Shown here piece after piece: positions 30,111 to 63,016 of a stretch of DNA of 64,000 nucleotides. Below the pieces are notes generated by a model that was not told the origin of the DNA, did not search any database, and worked only from the letters and a program-made list of their open reading frames with translations. The translations under genes and the position numbers were made by a program. The first letter of the stretch is position 1. Each line of letters starts with the position of its first letter. Source of the DNA: Pricia antarctica (GTDB lineage: Bacteria > Bacteroidota > Bacteroidia > Flavobacteriales > Flavobacteriaceae); NCBI RefSeq assembly GCF_900101815.1, contig NZ_FNAO01000001.1, positions 372,001 to 436,000 on the forward strand. Direction: 5' to 3'.

Positions 30111-30754
30111 TCGTCCCAGCTATCGGAATAGGCATCCGCCTCTTTTTTTCCAAACGCACTTTTATTAAAGACGATTAAAATACCTACGCCTGTACTGATG
30201 GCCATATCGGCAATGTTGAAGACAGGTTCGAAAAATCGGAAATCCGACCCCCCAAAATAGGGCACCCATTCGGGCCATGTGGAGTCTATAATAGGAAAAT
30301 AGAGCATGTCGACCACCTTACCATGGAAAATATCGCCGTAGGGTTCCGCTGAAAATGCCGTGGCCACCTGTTGGTAACTATCGTTAAAAATCATTCCGTA
30401 AAAAACGGAATCGATAATATTGCCCAGCGCTCCCGCAAAAATTAAAGAAACGGCCCAAATTAAAGTTTTCGACGATTTCTTTCGAACCGTATCGTAAAGC
30501 CAATAACCAATGCCCGCTACGGCAAACAATCGGAATACGGTCAGTATTAGTTTTCCCGTCGATTCCGAAACCGGTAAAAAATCACTGAGTTTCGCGCCCC
30601 AAGCTGCCCCGGAATTTTCGATGAACAGTATTTTAAACCAATTGAAAACATCTACCGATTCTCCCAATACGAAATGGGTCTTTATGTAGTATTTGCTTCC
30701 TTGGTCTATCAGCAATAGTACCGCTATGATTAGCACCGATTTCTTTAAACTCAT
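30083..30754 (-). CDS. lspA: Lipoprotein signal peptidase (signal peptidase II)
   Basis: LspA cleaves prolipoproteins before the lipidated Cys. The 223-residue membrane protein has the two catalytic Asp motifs GALGNIIDSVFYG (about residue 114) and FNIADMAISTGVGIL (about 185), four membrane helices, and an insert between the motifs as is common in Bacteroidota. It ends the leftward group ileS, TraR/DksA-like, DUF2807-like, lspA. The association of ileS and lspA is seen across many bacteria. Confidence 0.96.
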   Translation of the reverse strand: MSLKKSVLIIAVLLLIDQGSKYYIKTHFVLGESVDVFNWFKILFIENSGAAWGAKLSDFLPVSESTGKLILTVFRLFAVAGIGYWLYDTVRKKSSKTLIWAVSLIFAGALGNIIDSVFYGMIFNDSYQQVATAFSAEPYGDIFHGKVVDMLYFPIIDSTWPEWVPYFGGSDFRFFEPVFNIADMAISTGVGILIVFNKSAFGKKEADAYSDSWDDYVARTEKE

Positions 30755-56199: not shown

Positions 56200-59100
56200 T
56201 CAGACCCTCTCGACAATAATCCTATCATTAATATAAACAAGTAATCGATTTTGAACTTGATAACCCATGGCTTCCAAGGCATCGGAATACGTGTATAACT
56301 GTTCTTTGTACCTTGGGTCGGGCCCGCCAGTTTTATAATCGATAAGGTGGGCGTAATTTCCCTGAAAGACAATCTTATCAGGCCTTAATATCCGACCCTT
56401 TTCGGTAATAATGTCCTTTTCGTTTTTGATGATCTTACCCGGTTGAAAATATACGGCTAATTCTGGATGACTCAGCACCTGTAGGATACTTTTCTTGATG
56501 CTTTTGATGTCATTACTGGCCATATCGCCGTTTCTCATAAGAAAATCAAAAGCGGCATCAACGTCCTTTTCGGTTTCCACTAGACCCAGTAGATGATGTA
56601 TCAAATTCCCTTTTGAAATAGCTTCTTGCCGATCTGTATCCCAAAGCATTCCCGATTTGGTCAAAATGCGGAAACCCGGCCTGTTTTTATAGGTGTATCG
56701 ATAGGTAATATTTTCGTGAGACGTAACGGTAGAGGCGCTGGTATTTTCCTCCAGAGTGCCAAAACTATAGCTGCGCTCGTCATCCTTCCATAGCCCTTTC
56801 TTTTTCAGATAGTCAATAAAAAGTCCGGAATAAAGGTCTGTTTTATGTTCACCGTCTTTAGTGAGGTCCTTTTCGCTGATCACGTACAAAGCCTTTTCGG
56901 CGCGGGTCAGTGCCACATAAAGTACGTTGAACGCATCGAGTTCCATTTTATGCTCTTCCTCATAATACAGTTCGGCCGCCACCTCGCCATAATTTTCCAC
57001 CTCTTTTTTTTCATTGACCAGCACCTCCTCGAAGCCATTAAAAGCATCCGCATCCAAGGGTAGCCATAGTTTTTTATCCATCCGTTTATACATATTCTCA
57101 TTGGCGAAGGGAAAAATAACGATAGGAAACTCAAGTCCTTTGGCCTTATGAATGGTCATAATACGCACTGCGTCGATATTATCCGGGGCGGAAATGCACA
57201 GCCTGTCCTTTTTCTTTTCCCAATGGGATAAAAAGGTTTGAATACCTGTACCTTTCTTTTGCTCGACTTCCAATACTACATCCATAAAATAAGTAAGGTA
57301 GGCATCCGATTTTGGGGCAAGGTCGAACTGTTTTATGGCCAGCTCCATCCCATCGTAGACCGAAATTTGTTGGAGAACGTGCAAATCAAAACCGTAATCG
57401 GCCTTTAAGAGCTTTGCTATCTGGCGTAGGTTATCAAAAATAAAGGAATGCCGGTCTTTCTTTTCAGCCGATAAAAAGGATAGTATTCCATACGCTACTT
57501 CCAGATTTTTCACGTCTTCGCTATAGGCCAGCACGTGGGCTAAAAAACGTACTTTATCGCTACTGTTTAGCAAAAGACTTTCTGAGGAAATGGTAGGAAT
57601 CTCCCGATGCGCCAAGAAATCGGCCAGTACAACCCCTTCCTTTTTGCCCCTCACCAAAATACAAACGGAGTCATAGCTATAGTTTTTTTCGATTACCGAC
57701 CGGATGGTTTTTAGGACTTCTTCGCAATAGAGGCCGTTCTTATCCTCTTCTTGATCTTTTTCGATAAAGCTCAGCTGAACCTTTCCTCCTTTTTTGGGAT
57801 TGTAGCCTTGCCGGTTGCCCTCGACGAATAGGGTATTATACAATTCATTATTCAGAAACGGACTCGTAGCGGTGAAAAAATCATTATTAAATTTGATGAC
57901 CTCTTCATGACTTCGGTAATTGATGGGGAGAAACTCGGTTTTAGGAGTCGCTACAAACGGATTCTCAACGCCGTTCGCCAAATTCAAAAATTGCTCTGCC
58001 CTACCGCCACGCCAGCGATAAATGGCCTGTTTCGCATCGCCGACGAGAAACAAGGAGCCACGTCGGCCCTGCATGTCCTCACTTTCGAGGGCATTCGCTA
58101 TCAACGGTACCAGATTATTCCATTGCAGGGTAGAGGTGTCCTGAAATTCGTCAACAAAATAATGTCGGTATTTCTCCCCGAGACGTTCATATATAAAAGG
58201 GGCAGGTTGGTTTTTTATTTCTTTGGATATCAACGTGTTGAATTCCGAAATCGATAGTTGATCGTTCTCGGATTGCAGGGTTTTCACTTCGTGCTGGATG
58301 GCATTGAGCACCGTCAGCGGTACGATGTTGTTATAGGCATTCTTCAGAAAGGCCAATTCGTAATACCCCGTTTGTAATGCATTAAAAACAATCGTGAATT
58401 CCGAATGTAGTCTATCCAGCGTTGCCTTCACCTTTTCAGGTGCGGATTTGTTGTACAGCGTCACGGTTTCGAAATTTTGCTTCCATGCGGCGCTGAAATC
58501 CATATTCAAATCTCCATCTGCAATTTTTATCAGGAACTTTGGAAAATAGCTTCCGGTAAAATCCGACGTTTCCAATCCTTCTTCTTCTATTACGCGCAAT
58601 GTCTGTGAAGCGGTATCGACCAATCTTTCCTTTAGTGCCTTTGCCCTTTTGCGCAGTATTCCCTTTAATCCCAAAAAATCGTCAATTCCCTTATCCTTTA
58701 GCTTTTCGAGATGCTGTGTATGGGTTTCGTTGAACAGCAGTTTTCCGATATTGAAAAGGTCGAGGCCAATATCCCAACTTTTATCGTCATCTATTTTTTC
58801 CAAAGCAAAATCCAAGAGTACTTTGGTCAGTTTTTTGTTTGTACCCGCCTTATAGACCAGTCTTGCCACAGCCTCGTCCAATAAAAGATCCGTATCGAGA
58901 ACCACTTCGAAGTTTTGAGGAAGCTTCAAGTCCTTGGCAAAAGTGCGTATAAGACGATGCGTGAACCGGTCGATGGTCGAGATATCAAAAAAAGCATAGT
59001 TGTGCAAAATTTCCTTCAGGGTAGATTTCGATCGTTGGCGAAGTGCTCGAGCATCAATCTGTAGCTCTTTCATGAGATCGTGGAAAAGGGGAGGCGCATT

Positions 59101-59310
59101 CTTCGGGTCATCGATATTACCAAATTGGTACAGACTGTCGAGAATACGGTGTTTCATCTCGTTTACCGCTTTGTTGGTGAAGGTAATAGCCAGTATTTTC
59201 TTAAAACGTCCGGCAGAAGACAGGGCGATTTTAAGATAGGCCTTGGTCAGGGTGTGGGTCTTGCCCGAACCGGCGGAAGCATTGTATATTTTGAAAGGGG
59301 CGTCTTGCAA
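56200..59310 (-). CDS. AddA/RecB-type UvrD-like helicase with nuclease domain
   Basis: The product of about 1036 residues has the superfamily 1 helicase motifs: Walker A NASAGSGKTHTLT, Walker B YFVDEFQDTS, LVGDAKQAIYRWRGG, MTIHKAKGLEFPIVIFPF and VALTRAEKALYV. A C-terminal RecB nuclease core (PDKIVFQGNYAHLIDYKTG) follows. It should process double-strand breaks for recombination with an AddB-like partner, which is not next to it here. The frame opens at a TTG at 59355; the TTG at 59310 (MQDAPFKIYNASAG) fits the family better. Either start is non-ATG. Confidence 0.92.
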   Translation of the reverse strand: MQDAPFKIYNASAGSGKTHTLTKAYLKIALSSAGRFKKILAITFTNKAVNEMKHRILDSLYQFGNIDDPKNAPPLFHDLMKELQIDARALRQRSKSTLKEILHNYAFFDISTIDRFTHRLIRTFAKDLKLPQNFEVVLDTDLLLDEAVARLVYKAGTNKKLTKVLLDFALEKIDDDKSWDIGLDLFNIGKLLFNETHTQHLEKLKDKGIDDFLGLKGILRKRAKALKERLVDTASQTLRVIEEEGLETSDFTGSYFPKFLIKIADGDLNMDFSAAWKQNFETVTLYNKSAPEKVKATLDRLHSEFTIVFNALQTGYYELAFLKNAYNNIVPLTVLNAIQHEVKTLQSENDQLSISEFNTLISKEIKNQPAPFIYERLGEKYRHYFVDEFQDTSTLQWNNLVPLIANALESEDMQGRRGSLFLVGDAKQAIYRWRGGRAEQFLNLANGVENPFVATPKTEFLPINYRSHEEVIKFNNDFFTATSPFLNNELYNTLFVEGNRQGYNPKKGGKVQLSFIEKDQEEDKNGLYCEEVLKTIRSVIEKNYSYDSVCILVRGKKEGVVLADFLAHREIPTISSESLLLNSSDKVRFLAHVLAYSEDVKNLEVAYGILSFLSAEKKDRHSFIFDNLRQIAKLLKADYGFDLHVLQQISVYDGMELAIKQFDLAPKSDAYLTYFMDVVLEVEQKKGTGIQTFLSHWEKKKDRLCISAPDNIDAVRIMTIHKAKGLEFPIVIFPFANENMYKRMDKKLWLPLDADAFNGFEEVLVNEKKEVENYGEVAAELYYEEEHKMELDAFNVLYVALTRAEKALYVISEKDLTKDGEHKTDLYSGLFIDYLKKKGLWKDDERSYSFGTLEENTSASTVTSHENITYRYTYKNRPGFRILTKSGMLWDTDRQEAISKGNLIHHLLGLVETEKDVDAAFDFLMRNGDMASNDIKSIKKSILQVLSHPELAVYFQPGKIIKNEKDIITEKGRILRPDKIVFQGNYAHLIDYKTGGPDPRYKEQLYTYSDALEAMGYQVQNRLLVYINDRIIVERV

Positions 59311-59453
59311 GTGCTTTTTTACGCAAAATACGGATTCTATTACTGTTCTTAACAAATAATTAGGGGGTTTTACCTGTTAAAAAATGTACATTAGCTATAT
59401 AGCAGCATGCGTGTTGCAAAGAATAAACTTATTAATCTAAAAAACACTATAAA

Positions 59454-60062
59454 ATGGCTTTTGATCTACCAAAATTACCGTATGCATTCGATGCATTGGA
59501 ACCGAATATAGATGCTCGTACCATGGAAATACACCACGACAAACACCATGCGGGCTATACAAATAAATTGAATGCCGCCATAGAAGGAACCGAAATGGAA
59601 GATAAGAAAATAGAGGATATTTTGCAGCATCTCGACATGTCAAAAACCGCGGTGAGAAATAACGGGGGCGGATTTTATAACCATTCCCTATTCTGGAAAA
59701 TGTTGTCTCCCGACGGTGGTGGAAAACCCTCCGGTGAGGTTGCCAAAGCAATTGATGCGGCTTTTGGTTCTTTCGACAGTTTCAAAGAGAAGTTTAGTGA
59801 CGCCGCAGGTTCACGCTTCGGATCGGGCTGGGCTTGGTTGTGCGTACACAAGGGCGGAAAATTAGAAATCTGCTCCACTCCGAATCAGGATAGTCCACTG
59901 ATGCCCGATACCGGTTGTGGAGGTCATCCCATTTTAGGACTTGATGTATGGGAACATGCGTATTACCTGCACTATCAGAATAAAAGACCTGAATATATCA
60001 ATGCGTTTTTCAATGTAATTAATTGGGACGAGGTAGCAAAGCGATATGCCGACGGCAAGTAA
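59454..60062 (+). CDS. Iron/manganese superoxide dismutase
   Basis: The 202-residue cytoplasmic enzyme dismutates superoxide. Metal ligands are visible as His in [16 protein letters not shown], His in [14 protein letters not shown], and Asp and His in [19 protein letters not shown]. The Fe or Mn preference is not settled from these positions. A 20-bp perfect hairpin terminates the gene, and an array of small RNA genes faces it from the other side. Confidence 0.96.
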
Positions 60063-60082
60063 GACTTAAAGGAGTCCCTTAA

Positions 60083-60126
60083 ATTAAAAAGCCCGGAACC
60101 AACTTTGGTTCCGGGCTTTTTAATTC
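60083..60126. terminator. 20-bp perfect terminator hairpin after superoxide dismutase
   Basis: The arms 60083-60102 and 60107-60126 are perfect reverse complements around the loop ACTT. A and T tracts flank the GC-rich core, so it can end transcripts from either side: the dismutase gene from the left and the small RNA array from the right. Confidence 0.93.
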
Positions 60127-60136
60127 TTATTTTTAA

Positions 60137-60211
60137 TAGAAAAGGGCGGAGAAGTCTCCACCCTTTTCGTCCCAAATCTTACCATAAACTTAACCTACTT
60201 ATGCTATGGCA
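60137..60211 (-). ncRNA. Small RNA gene, copy 1 of a tandem family
   Basis: On the minus strand an exact TATTTTTG box (60216-60223) is followed after 5 bases by CCATAGCATAAGTAGG and the rest of the conserved 40-base block. The terminator hairpin 60141-60168 (arms of about 13 bases) and a T-rich end follow. The mismatched stem position is A-C on the plus strand but G-U on the minus strand. This copy differs from copies 2-4 at a few bases (G for the first A, T for C before ATGGT), and the ACCAT/ATGGT stem is kept by a G-U pair. The predicted RNA is about 75 nt. Confidence 0.72.
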
Positions 60212-60279
60212 ATTCAAAAATACTAGGATTGTTGCGAATAAAAAAAGTTTTTATTAAAAATAATGGTTTTTTTTATTCG

Positions 60280-60334
60280 AAACTGGGGTTAATCTCGGTT
60301 CAAACTGGGGTTAACCTTATCTTTAAATGGGGTT
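60280..60334. repeat. Phased GGGGTT direct repeats between small RNA copies 1 and 2
   Basis: AAACTGGGGTTAA occurs at 60280-60292 and 60302-60314, and a weaker AAATGGGGTT follows at 60325-60334. The spacing is 22-23 bases, about two helical turns, upstream of copy 1 on the minus strand. This is the layout expected of protein-binding sites. Confidence 0.5.
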
Positions 60335-60340
60335 GGTACC

Positions 60341-60414
60341 AATAAAAAGGCGGAACAATTTGCTCCGCCTTTTCCCCAAATCTTACCATGAACTTAACCT
60401 ACTTATGCTATGGT
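60341..60414 (-). ncRNA. Small RNA gene, copy 2 of a tandem family
   Basis: An exact TATTTTTG box (60419-60426) lies 5 bases before CCATAGC on the minus strand. The conserved block is followed by a terminator hairpin (60344-60373; stem GGCGGA with TCCGCC, extended by a G-U and further pairs only on the minus strand) and five T. All 74 bases are identical to copy 3. Confidence 0.75.
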
Positions 60415-60640
60415 CCTTCAAAAATACAGCAAGGTTGACCTTTTAAAAAAGGTTTTAGATGAATGACCGTTTCCTAGGACGAAATGCAAGATTCAATAGT
60501 AAGGTGGTTGAGTGTGCTGAAACCATTAGGAGGCTTTTTAAAGACTAAGCAGGCTTTTTGGCATATAGACTCATTTGAATGGTGATATGGGGCCTAAAAA
60601 AGAGACTAAGCCATTCCTCAGTATGACAAAAAAGTCTATA

Positions 60641-60714
60641 AATAAAAAGGCGGAACAATTTGCTCCGCCTTTTCCCCAAATCTTACCATGAACTTAACCT
60701 ACTTATGCTATGGT
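60641..60714 (-). ncRNA. Small RNA gene, copy 3 of a tandem family
   Basis: It is identical to copy 2 over 74 bases and lies exactly 300 bases from it. Its own -7 box is different but still exact (TACATTTG, 60719-60726), again 5 bases before CCATAGC. The sequences between copies are unrelated, so only the promoter pattern and the RNA are conserved. Confidence 0.75.
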
Positions 60715-60816
60715 GAGACAAATGTATTGCAAAAGCGCACCTATAGAAATTTTATTTGTTGAAAGGGACTAATATGGGATGAATCGCGTACATCAAATTT
60801 TGATGGGGATTTGAAA

Positions 60817-60890
60817 ATAAAAAAGGTGGAGAAGTCTCCACCTTTTTTGCCCCAAATCTTACCATGAACTTAACCTACTTATGCTATGGT
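60817..60890 (-). ncRNA. Small RNA gene, copy 4 of a tandem family
   Basis: The -7 box is TAAATTTG (60896-60903), 6 bases before CCATAGC. The conserved block matches copies 2 and 3, while the terminator stem (60819-60848) changes to GGTGGAGA with TCTCCACC, a paired change against GGCGGA with TCCGCC. Six T follow on the minus strand. It lies about 130 bases beyond the end of purF, which reads in the same direction. Confidence 0.75.
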
Positions 60891-61019
60891 AAGCTCAAAT
60901 TTACCTTGAGAAAGCCGTTAAAACGCTGAAAAAACGATATAGAACTTAAATTATCGATGAAATGCATATTTACCTGTATTTCATCGATGGGAACCCATTC
61001 ATTCGAACATCGAAGCAAT

Positions 61020-62918
61020 TCAATACGCCCGTTCGTTCTTGCCTTCATAAAAATTGATAAAGGCCCTGTTGACAACACGATTTCCTCCCGGAGTCGGATA
61101 GTTTCCGGTAAAATACCAGTCCCCCAAATTCTTCGGACAGGCCTGATGTAAATGTTCTATGGTCTGATAAATAATCTGTACCTCGGCCTTCATATCATCG
61201 GGACTCAATAATTCCCCTATTTTCTGGGAAATTTCCTGGGCGGTAAATGGTGCATAGAAGTCTTTGACATGGTTTATGACCTCAACATCCCTTGAATCGG
61301 CCTGTGCCATACATTTATCGTAAATATCGTCTACCATGTTCATGGTTAAACGTTCTTGGTGCAGCGCCAATGCCGCTTTAAAGGCAATAAAATCTTCTAA
61401 CTTGGCCATATCGATACCGTAGCAGTCGGGATAACGGATTTGCGGAGCGGAAGAGACTACGACTATTTTTTTCGGCGATAGCCGGTCCAAAATACGGAGG
61501 ATACTCTTTTTCAGGGTTGTACCCCTAACAATGCTGTCGTCTATAATTACAAGGTTATCCCCTTTTTCAACAGAGCCATATGAAATGTCGTAAACATGGG
61601 CCACCAAGTCGTCCCTACTACTGTCTTGCGTAATGAAGGTACGTAGTTTAGCATCCTTTATGGCCACTTTTTCAATACGCGGACGTACTTCCAGAATTTC
61701 GTGGAGCTGCTCGCTCGTGATTTTTGTTCCGATGGAAAGAATCTGTTCTTCCTTTCTCTTGTTGAGGTAGTTCTGCGCCTCCTTTACCATACCGAAAAAA
61801 GAGGTTTCCGCTGTATTCGGAATATAGGAGAACACGGTGTTTTTTATATCATTTTCTATGGACGACAATATCTGGGGGAAAAGTAGTTTGCCCAGCATTT
61901 TTCGTTCCTGATAAATTTCCTTATCGCTACCTCGTGAAAAATAGATCCGTTCAAAAGAACAGGCCTTTCTTTCTACTGGGGTCAAGATTTTTTTTAGGGA
62001 TGTTTTACCATTCTTTTCTACAATGATGGCATGTCCCGGATCCAATTCCTTGACTTCTTCGTAGGGCACATTGAACACGGTCTGTATCGCCGGTCGTTCG
62101 GATGCGATGGCGACCACTTCGTCATCTTGGTAATAGTAGACCGGACGTATACCTGCAGGATCTCGCAATACAAAAGCATCGCCATGGCCCAGAAGTCCGG
62201 CCATAGCATAGCCTCCGTCAAAGTTTTTGGCCGCCCTTCTCAAAATTTTGTGCACTTTGAGCCTTTCTGCAATAAGCGGGGAGGCTTCCTGTTTGGTATA
62301 CCCTTCTTTTTTTATCTGTTTATAGAGCTTGGCAACAGCATCATCCAAAAAATGACCTATTTTTTCCATCACGGTGACCGTATCTGCCATTTCCTTGGGA
62401 TGTTGCCCTAATTGGATCAGGTTATCGAACAACTCGTTCACATTGGTCATGTTGAAGTTTCCGGCAATGATAAGGTTCCGGTGCATCCAGTTGTTTTGGC
62501 GTAGGAACGGATGTACGTTTTCGATACTATTTTTTCCAAAAGTACCATAGCGCACGTGCCCTAATAACACTTCCCCGATATATGGGATATGCTTTTTTTG
62601 CATGGCGACGTCGTCAACATATTCCGGATGCTCCTTTAGTGTAGTATTGATGCGGTCGTTGATCTGGTCGAAAATATCCTGAATGGGCTGTTGTGCCACG
62701 GAACGTACCCGGCTCATATAACGCTCACCGGCCTCCATATCCAATTTGATGCTAGCAAAACCCGCACCGTCCTGACCCCGGTTATGCTGCTTTTCCATCA
62801 TCAGGTACATTTTGTTTACCCCATAAAAGGCTGTACCGTACTTTTTCTTATAGTATTCCAAGGGTTTCAATAACCGAATCAAAGAAATACCACATTCATG
62901 TTTGATAGCGTCACTCAT
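61020..62918 (-). CDS. purF: Amidophosphoribosyltransferase, 632-residue Bacteroidota type
   Basis: PurF makes phosphoribosylamine from PRPP and glutamine, the first step of purine synthesis. The N-terminal glutamine amidotransferase domain has its nucleophile at Cys9 (MSDAIKHECGISL) after an 8-residue leader, with QHNRGQDGAGFAS and LLGHVRYGTFGKNS. The PRPP-binding site is NLVIIDDSIVRGTTLKKSI. The protein is longer than enterobacterial PurF (about 505) and has extra segments in both domains, and other purine genes are not adjacent. A second-type amidophosphoribosyltransferase-like enzyme is the alternative. Confidence 0.9.
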   Translation of the reverse strand: MSDAIKHECGISLIRLLKPLEYYKKKYGTAFYGVNKMYLMMEKQHNRGQDGAGFASIKLDMEAGERYMSRVRSVAQQPIQDIFDQINDRINTTLKEHPEYVDDVAMQKKHIPYIGEVLLGHVRYGTFGKNSIENVHPFLRQNNWMHRNLIIAGNFNMTNVNELFDNLIQLGQHPKEMADTVTVMEKIGHFLDDAVAKLYKQIKKEGYTKQEASPLIAERLKVHKILRRAAKNFDGGYAMAGLLGHGDAFVLRDPAGIRPVYYYQDDEVVAIASERPAIQTVFNVPYEEVKELDPGHAIIVEKNGKTSLKKILTPVERKACSFERIYFSRGSDKEIYQERKMLGKLLFPQILSSIENDIKNTVFSYIPNTAETSFFGMVKEAQNYLNKRKEEQILSIGTKITSEQLHEILEVRPRIEKVAIKDAKLRTFITQDSSRDDLVAHVYDISYGSVEKGDNLVIIDDSIVRGTTLKKSILRILDRLSPKKIVVVSSAPQIRYPDCYGIDMAKLEDFIAFKAALALHQERLTMNMVDDIYDKCMAQADSRDVEVINHVKDFYAPFTAQEISQKIGELLSPDDMKAEVQIIYQTIEHLHQACPKNLGDWYFTGNYPTPGGNRVVNRAFINFYEGKNERAY

Positions 62919-62993
62919 TTTGCGTTGCGGGTTAAAAAAGGTTACGGGCTATAAAGTCATTTATTGGTTGCAATCTATATGCCAACTTGCATT

Positions 62994-63016
62994 AAAAAAG
63001 CCCCAAATGTTGGGGC
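62994..63016 (-). terminator. Intrinsic terminator after the PfkB-type kinase gene
   Basis: On the minus strand GCCCCAA and TTGGGGC form a 7-bp stem with a 3-base loop (63000-63016), followed by six T. It lies 12 bases after the stop of the kinase gene. Confidence 0.9.

Follow-up and report, generated by a model that had tools for sequence, protein, structure and literature searches.

To our knowledge, few small RNAs (sRNAs) of Bacteroidota have a described function, and the literature on them, in the parts on which we draw, describes none as common to the family Flavobacteriaceae. For the Qrr, LhrC and Cia-dependent sRNAs the regulators are known. Among the closest described systems are FopS and GibS of Bacteroides thetaiotaomicron, which the parts of two reports used here (PMC11697453, PMC7366714) present as multicopy Bacteroidota sRNA paralogues with their own promoter and terminator, pairing near the start codons of mRNAs for outer-membrane proteins, SusC in their case. 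Here we analyse a stretch of 64,000 nucleotides from Pricia antarctica (the window, whose positions are used throughout), in which four units on the minus strand, in 60138-60903, likewise consist of a promoter box, a conserved block and a terminator. Comparison across genomes supports well the initial annotation of these units as a multicopy small RNA family with own promoters and terminators, and we consider it fairly probable that the array is a battery of sRNAs under two kinds of control, with a loop acting on the translation starts of envelope genes; a PorP/SprF gene is proposed here in the role that SusC has there.

The resemblance to FopS and GibS is incomplete. In the relevant part of PMC11697453, FopS has a 5' end composed of a single-stranded stretch followed by the terminator and is bound by the RRM protein RbpB, whereas the RNA described here has a predicted 5' hairpin (97% of alignment cells paired) and is encoded in a genome with no RRM_1 match, a Bacteroides control genome being positive; Hfq was not found in the genome of P. 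antarctica either. Unlike those of FopS and GibS, most copies cluster at a single syntenic locus. Both the 5' hairpin and the absence of an RRM protein argue against membership in the FopS/GibS group, from which the RNA is set apart by description. Rfp18 of Flavobacterium psychrophilum, as far as covered by the consulted part of PMC9723704, is also a conserved flavobacterial sRNA that acts on secreted proteins, with one predicted site in an operon gap; it pairs via a third stem-loop, whereas the RNA here has two, and since the comparison is one of descriptions the two could be identical. Several similar copies under shared control are a feature of Qrr, LhrC and the Cia-dependent sRNAs, all from other phyla (PMC11697453, in part). 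In the portions of the sRNA literature available to us we found no description of the array, and the candidates listed for F. psychrophilum and F. columnare (PMC9723704, PMC5395568) may include a copy. Against Rfam 15 (4227 models), positions 58000-63000 gave 21 matches up to E 1 and none at the gathering cut-off (the best, Thr_leader, reached 32.8 bits against 55), so that the known family allowed for by the initial annotation was not recovered. Probably, we are dealing with a new sRNA family of a known kind, the RNA itself being an undescribed regulator.

The four units were located as initially claimed, with predicted RNA starts at 60890, 60714, 60414 and 60210 (coordinates rechecked). Each consists, in order, of a TAnnTTTG box, a block of about 40 nt and a GC-rich hairpin with a T run; the blocks are almost identical on alignment and read [AG]CCATAGCATAAGTAGGTTAAGTT[CT]ATGGTAAGATTTGGG. 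The four would be genes of a noncoding RNA of about 72 nt, each presumably transcribed from its own promoter and ended at its own intrinsic terminator. Unit 1 (60818..60890, first-type) comprises the 5' hairpin with a 13-nt loop, a AAGATTTGGGG linker and the terminator, and scores 101.6 bits with covariance model R1, among whose building sequences it is itself found. Units 2 (60645..60714) and 3 (60345..60414) are of middle type and unit 4 (60138..60210), with the GTTTATGG and GGGACG variants, is of last type; all three are supported by alignment, fold and covariance model, unit 4 also by its positional type. Folding predictions give all four RNAs a 5' hairpin followed by a terminator; relative to dinucleotide shuffles the z-scores range from -3.9 to -5.6. 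When 22 nt of the block were searched in the whole genome (4.85 Mb) with up to three mismatches, five matches were obtained, namely the four units and a solo copy, and the reversed control did not match at all, which argues that the array is not due to chance. The solo copy, located on another contig (C14:19423-19500), is equipped with a TACATTTG box and a terminator of its own, but it starts with CCATAAC and its linker is longer (AATGATTTGGGG).

The structural alignment comprises the best 150 of 187 matches, of which 125 distinct rows were used for pairing statistics. In these rows 98.2% of cells are paired, compared with 91.2% after shuffling and 31-56% when the partners are slid by one to three columns, percentages that lean towards the covariance model to which the alignment was fitted. 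In the terminator, where 99.2% of cells are paired, 10 of 11 pairs have changes on both sides; the 5' helix, at 97.2%, has a single pair with a two-sided change and 5 of 11 pairs that are invariant. Covariation is therefore strong for the terminator, and the 5' hairpin is supported mainly by its constancy. Within the loop, 147 of the 150 aligned copies have AGTAGGTTAAG unchanged, and altered loops occur in some lower-scoring copies outside this alignment. An ATG lies within the block of nearly every copy, and a short peptide read from ATGGTA could in principle be encoded; we regard this as extremely improbable, because of 336 distinct bodies 198 have AG and 135 have G in the linker between hairpin and terminator, an indel of one base which, like the A runs of variable length, shifts any reading frame, and because the terminator arm is conserved as pairs and not as codons. 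On comparative grounds, covarying terminators, a nearly frozen loop and frame-shifting indels make a solid case for a noncoding RNA family.

This family of RNAs is widespread in one family of bacteria, which we take to be Flavobacteriaceae, as the named matches belong there. In a DNA search with one unit, 95 of the 120 genomes sampled from the family gave matches, 77 of them at least two. The covariance model, built from 47 units (47 of 71 distinct units aligned), matched 33 of 246 genomes at the level of the order, 32 within the family and one, weakly (E 3.7e-4), outside it. At the level of the class (E <=0.01) it matched 23 of 295 genomes, six belonging to the family and 17, all scoring weakly (E 1e-4 to 0.01), lying outside it; two of these 17 that were inspected (L069, L070) proved to be terminators without the block. 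A pattern scan of species genomes returned at least 118 stretches, and the 80 of them that were listed come from Flavobacteriaceae genera or carry unspecific names (Flavobacteriia, Bacteroidetes, Bacteroidota bacterium); F. psychrophilum is absent among these 80. From 178 loci we obtained 168 distinct arrays, of which 69, 44, 29, 18, 7 and 1 have one to six units, respectively, copy numbers that are lower bounds as contig or locus ends cut some loci.

Promoters were compared with identical arrays and units counted once. In 221 of 355 units an exact TAnnTTT[GA] box ends within 9 nt of the block, and no other offset between 9 and 49 accounts for more than six units. Homologues that keep the block but lose the box or the terminator, which the initial annotation had named as evidence against its reading, are thus not the general pattern, as terminator pairs are formed in 99% of cells; the 134 units without an exact box in this position qualify the statement. 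As judged from sequence, each copy has its own promoter and its own terminator. In the window, the -7 boxes are TAAATTTG for unit 1 (60896..60903), TACATTTG for unit 2 (60719..60726) and TATTTTTG for units 3 (60419..60426) and 4 (60215..60222), all on the minus strand and at the position where the box is enriched throughout the family.

The initial annotation held that nothing else is kept between the units, and this has to be revised: units 1 to 3 are each preceded by a tandem repeat element, and this element shows conservation across the family. Of 303 distinct regions upstream of non-last units, 243 contain TTnRnC twice, 20-22 bp apart, compared with a mean of 1.5 and a maximum of 3 in 20 region shuffles. 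Five control windows further upstream gave 16, 17, 0, 1 and 1 of 303, and in the first two the second repeat coincides with the first repeat of the element. In all, 236 tandem pairs lie 20 bp and 42 lie 21 bp apart. The first repeat has the consensus TGCATTTCATCG. The putative operators of the window, on the minus strand, lie at 60930..60966 (unit 1, repeat one TGCATTTCATCG, repeat two weak, TTCTATATC; one mismatch, score 20.4), 60752..60788 (unit 2, direct repeat 20 bp apart; one mismatch, score 21.0) and 60452..60488 (unit 3, no mismatch, score 25.8, the top score in 803 kb of the genome). Units 1 to 3 are also the three best scores of a 211-site matrix in these 803 kb. Operator-like matches elsewhere in the 803 kb are C15:478707, C14:97662 and positions 30614 and 29322 of the window. 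The first of these (C15:478707-478743, score 17.8) lies upstream of a small lipoprotein-like open reading frame (ORF) whose start region is computed to pair with the loop at -11.8 kcal/mol, possibly by coincidence. Diverged extra units in L110, L120, L122, L144 and L159 carry AT[CT]CCAATATA about 50-60 nt upstream, at the position of the tandem repeat of other units.

Last-type units, defined by a GGGA[CT]G variant, number 48 of 354 (one of 355 was left out for its short flank), and all 48 are the last or the only unit seen in their array; a last-type unit ends 44 of the 55 arrays with three or more units. They carry another conserved promoter, CACAATACCAGTAATTTAG (350 of 353 units anchored for this comparison). 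The corresponding region of unit 4 (60215..60250, minus strand) has diverged from the family consensus CTTTgTTATTTCnCACAATACCAGTAATTTAG, and no tandem operator was recognised in it. TTAACCCCAGTTT is present twice, 9 bases apart, at 60280-60314 upstream of unit 4. We regard this promoter architecture, i.e. the box, the tandem repeat and the positional types, as a solid comparative result. Unit 4 would stand under a different conserved promoter, so that the same RNA would answer to at least two inputs.

The regulator of units 1 to 3 is probably of the LytTR type, a response regulator that would bind the tandem repeat about 37 and 57 bp upstream of the box and activate these units. This rests on resemblance. 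The first half-site of the operator, GCATTTCAT, matches 9 of 10 bases of GGCATTTCAT, a direct repeat of which is bound by the LytTR regulator YpdB at E. coli yhjX, according to the part of PMC4847170 used here; the spacing is 21 bp there and mostly 20 in our tandem repeat. The same source describes a LytTR site as a pair of repeats, each 9-11 nt long, with a spacer of 11-13 nt, a format that the element has, with two direct repeats upstream of a promoter and a period, mostly 20, at the lower edge of the range. The genome of P. antarctica contains 14 LytTR matches, among which no one stands out as the regulator. Several points weigh against this identification. LytTR sites have no common consensus according to the same part of PMC4847170, and the likeness to the YpdB site is therefore a lead and weak proof. 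The operator is absent at all 14 LytTR loci of the genome, where the best score is 8.5 compared with 19.7 for the 5% quantile of known sites, and autoregulation of a LytTR gene through the operator of the array was accordingly rejected. The matrix that ranks units 1 to 3 first was trained on family sites including units 2 and 3 of the window, the upstream tandem element of the solo copy is recognisable only in part (our reading), and the number of tandem sites within the window alone falls short of significance (4 against an expectation of 1.6, with at least 4 in 9 of 100 shuffles).

On its 5' hairpin the RNA would present the frozen loop AGUAGGUUAAG, which would pair with the translation start region of mRNAs for envelope and secreted proteins and lower their translation. 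The action in trans proposed in the initial annotation is supported in part, by the strand distribution of loop complements and by one conserved candidate site, and not by duplex energies. We searched for 11-nt words exactly complementary to the loop, the RNA genes being excluded by the choice of an end letter, using one pattern in 40 genomes and two others in 60. At gene starts, 32 sites were sense and 15 antisense of 151 testable on both strands (p 0.009), and with an ATG 8-35 nt from the site the numbers were 18 and 7; words of the same composition showed no sense bias in the own genome (435 sense, 541 antisense of 5753). The sense fraction was 32/152 for loop complements, compared with 75/1901 for same-composition words in the same loci and 429/5787 in the own genome. 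Because the antisense fraction is raised too, we rely on the strand comparison instead of these words. An uncorrected count of 36 sense and 8 antisense of 162 was set aside, as about 80 loci had no antisense flank; where both sides were testable it became 12 and 8 of 77. A reversed loop pattern, much commoner than the loop complement, was left unused as a control since the words differ in more than direction. Products resembling signal-peptide proteins follow 19 of the 32 sense sites; the corresponding figures are 195 of 598 for the ORFs of the own genome (p 0.002) and 4 of 15 for antisense sites, the call being a simple hydrophobicity rule with mechanically assigned start codons. Among sites called wholly 5' of the ATG the count is 17 of 29, two of which (L338, L396) belong to genes that probably start earlier.

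Other results speak against pairing of this kind. A duplex-energy scan of the loop over 564 own genes gave no clear preference of starts over gene bodies, with 9 strong matches at starts and 2 in bodies (5.6 expected, 2-13 in single shuffles). Over the same 564 genes, the linker as seed gave 15 strong matches at starts and 16 in bodies, and the whole block 22 and 19, and both were dropped as seeds. The excess of targets is about two-fold, on start codons called mechanically, and that of signal-peptide-like products may stem partly from sites inside signal-peptide codons. On sequence evidence, pairing with target mRNAs via the loop is suggestive.

The best candidate target is a PorP/SprF gene (PF11751, E 9e-72) situated behind the gene of an SprB-repeat adhesin that carries a type B sorting domain. 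The 19-nt gap between this type IX secretion system (T9SS) protein and the PorP/SprF gene (C15 ~642,916-642,934; L271 1499-1517) contains a perfect loop complement of 12 nt, and a site precedes the same gene in a second genus. We compared 24 sprF loci from 22 of 31 genomes searched. The gap retains CTTAACCTA, 7-14 nt before the ATG, in the own genome and in 5 of the 6 matches closest to it, while the rest of the gap varies, and 8 of the 24 loci beat all 100 shuffled loops. Strong sites in the more distant loci G009 and G021 were read as lying within the first codons. This candidate, too, faces objections: G037, among the seven closest sprF loci, lacks CTTAACCTA, and together with 15 others of the 24 it fails to beat all shuffled loops; the six carriers are related by descent, so that the sites at sprF amount to at most three independent events in all; and sprF was picked from many genes.

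An RNA whose stem, loop and linker are near-invariant across genera, beyond the needs of a short seed, may have a different function. RNA decoys such as CsrB or 6S RNA titrate proteins, and the hairpin, loop and linker might likewise titrate an RNA-binding protein, with mRNA pairing being incidental. The presence of at least two matches in most matching genomes and the weak bulk signal for targets would suit such a decoy. We nevertheless hold it to be rather unlikely: the genome has neither an RRM_1 protein, which would be a partner of the RbpB type, nor Hfq, and complements of the loop are over-represented at gene starts and conserved at sprF. We retain the pairing of the loop with translation starts as the preferred reading.

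The neighbourhood of the array is conserved as well. Of 157 arrays with sufficient flank, 148 follow a PurF-like gene of the same orientation, the median distance from the protein match being 106 nt; of 145 arrays, 124 are faced by a superoxide dismutase gene, and of 134, 111 have both neighbours. In the window these are the PurF-like gene at 61020..62918 on the minus strand and a convergent Fe/Mn superoxide dismutase gene at 59454..60062 on the plus strand. Between the latter and unit 4, at 60080-60127, lies a GC-rich inverted repeat flanked by A and T runs, which is probably a bidirectional terminator. The initial annotation named the first neighbour purF; its protein of 632 aa is indeed PurF-like, but its 135 bits fall short of the NCBIfam purF cut-off of 350, and it may have a function other than the usual one. 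The position behind this gene could mean that the units are its cis elements, either stacked 3'-end terminators or attenuators produced by read-through. We consider this improbable, since most units have a box at fixed distance and a tandem element further upstream, a fifth copy lies elsewhere in the genome and the block is conserved far beyond the needs of termination. Still less probable is a mobile or REP/MITE-like repeat (a repetitive extragenic palindrome or miniature inverted-repeat transposable element), for which the repeated, compact units with their hairpins might be taken; synteny across genera, positional types and conserved promoters contradict it, and viral contigs yielded no pattern match and plasmids no BLAST match.

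As a wider interpretation, which we put forward tentatively as a possibility, the array could be a core relay from a two-component system to an sRNA in Flavobacteriaceae, in which a LytTR regulator would switch on a dedicated battery of sRNAs, its last copy being controlled separately, and this battery would tune the T9SS and gliding surface of the SprB/SprF type together with other envelope proteins, in a genome with no recognisable Hfq or RRM protein. The near-invariant loop, the fixed neighbour gene and the conserved tandem operator would open post-transcriptional control to study in a large group of bacteria from marine, soil and freshwater habitats, and would also give an entry to the tuning of surface secretion and gliding.
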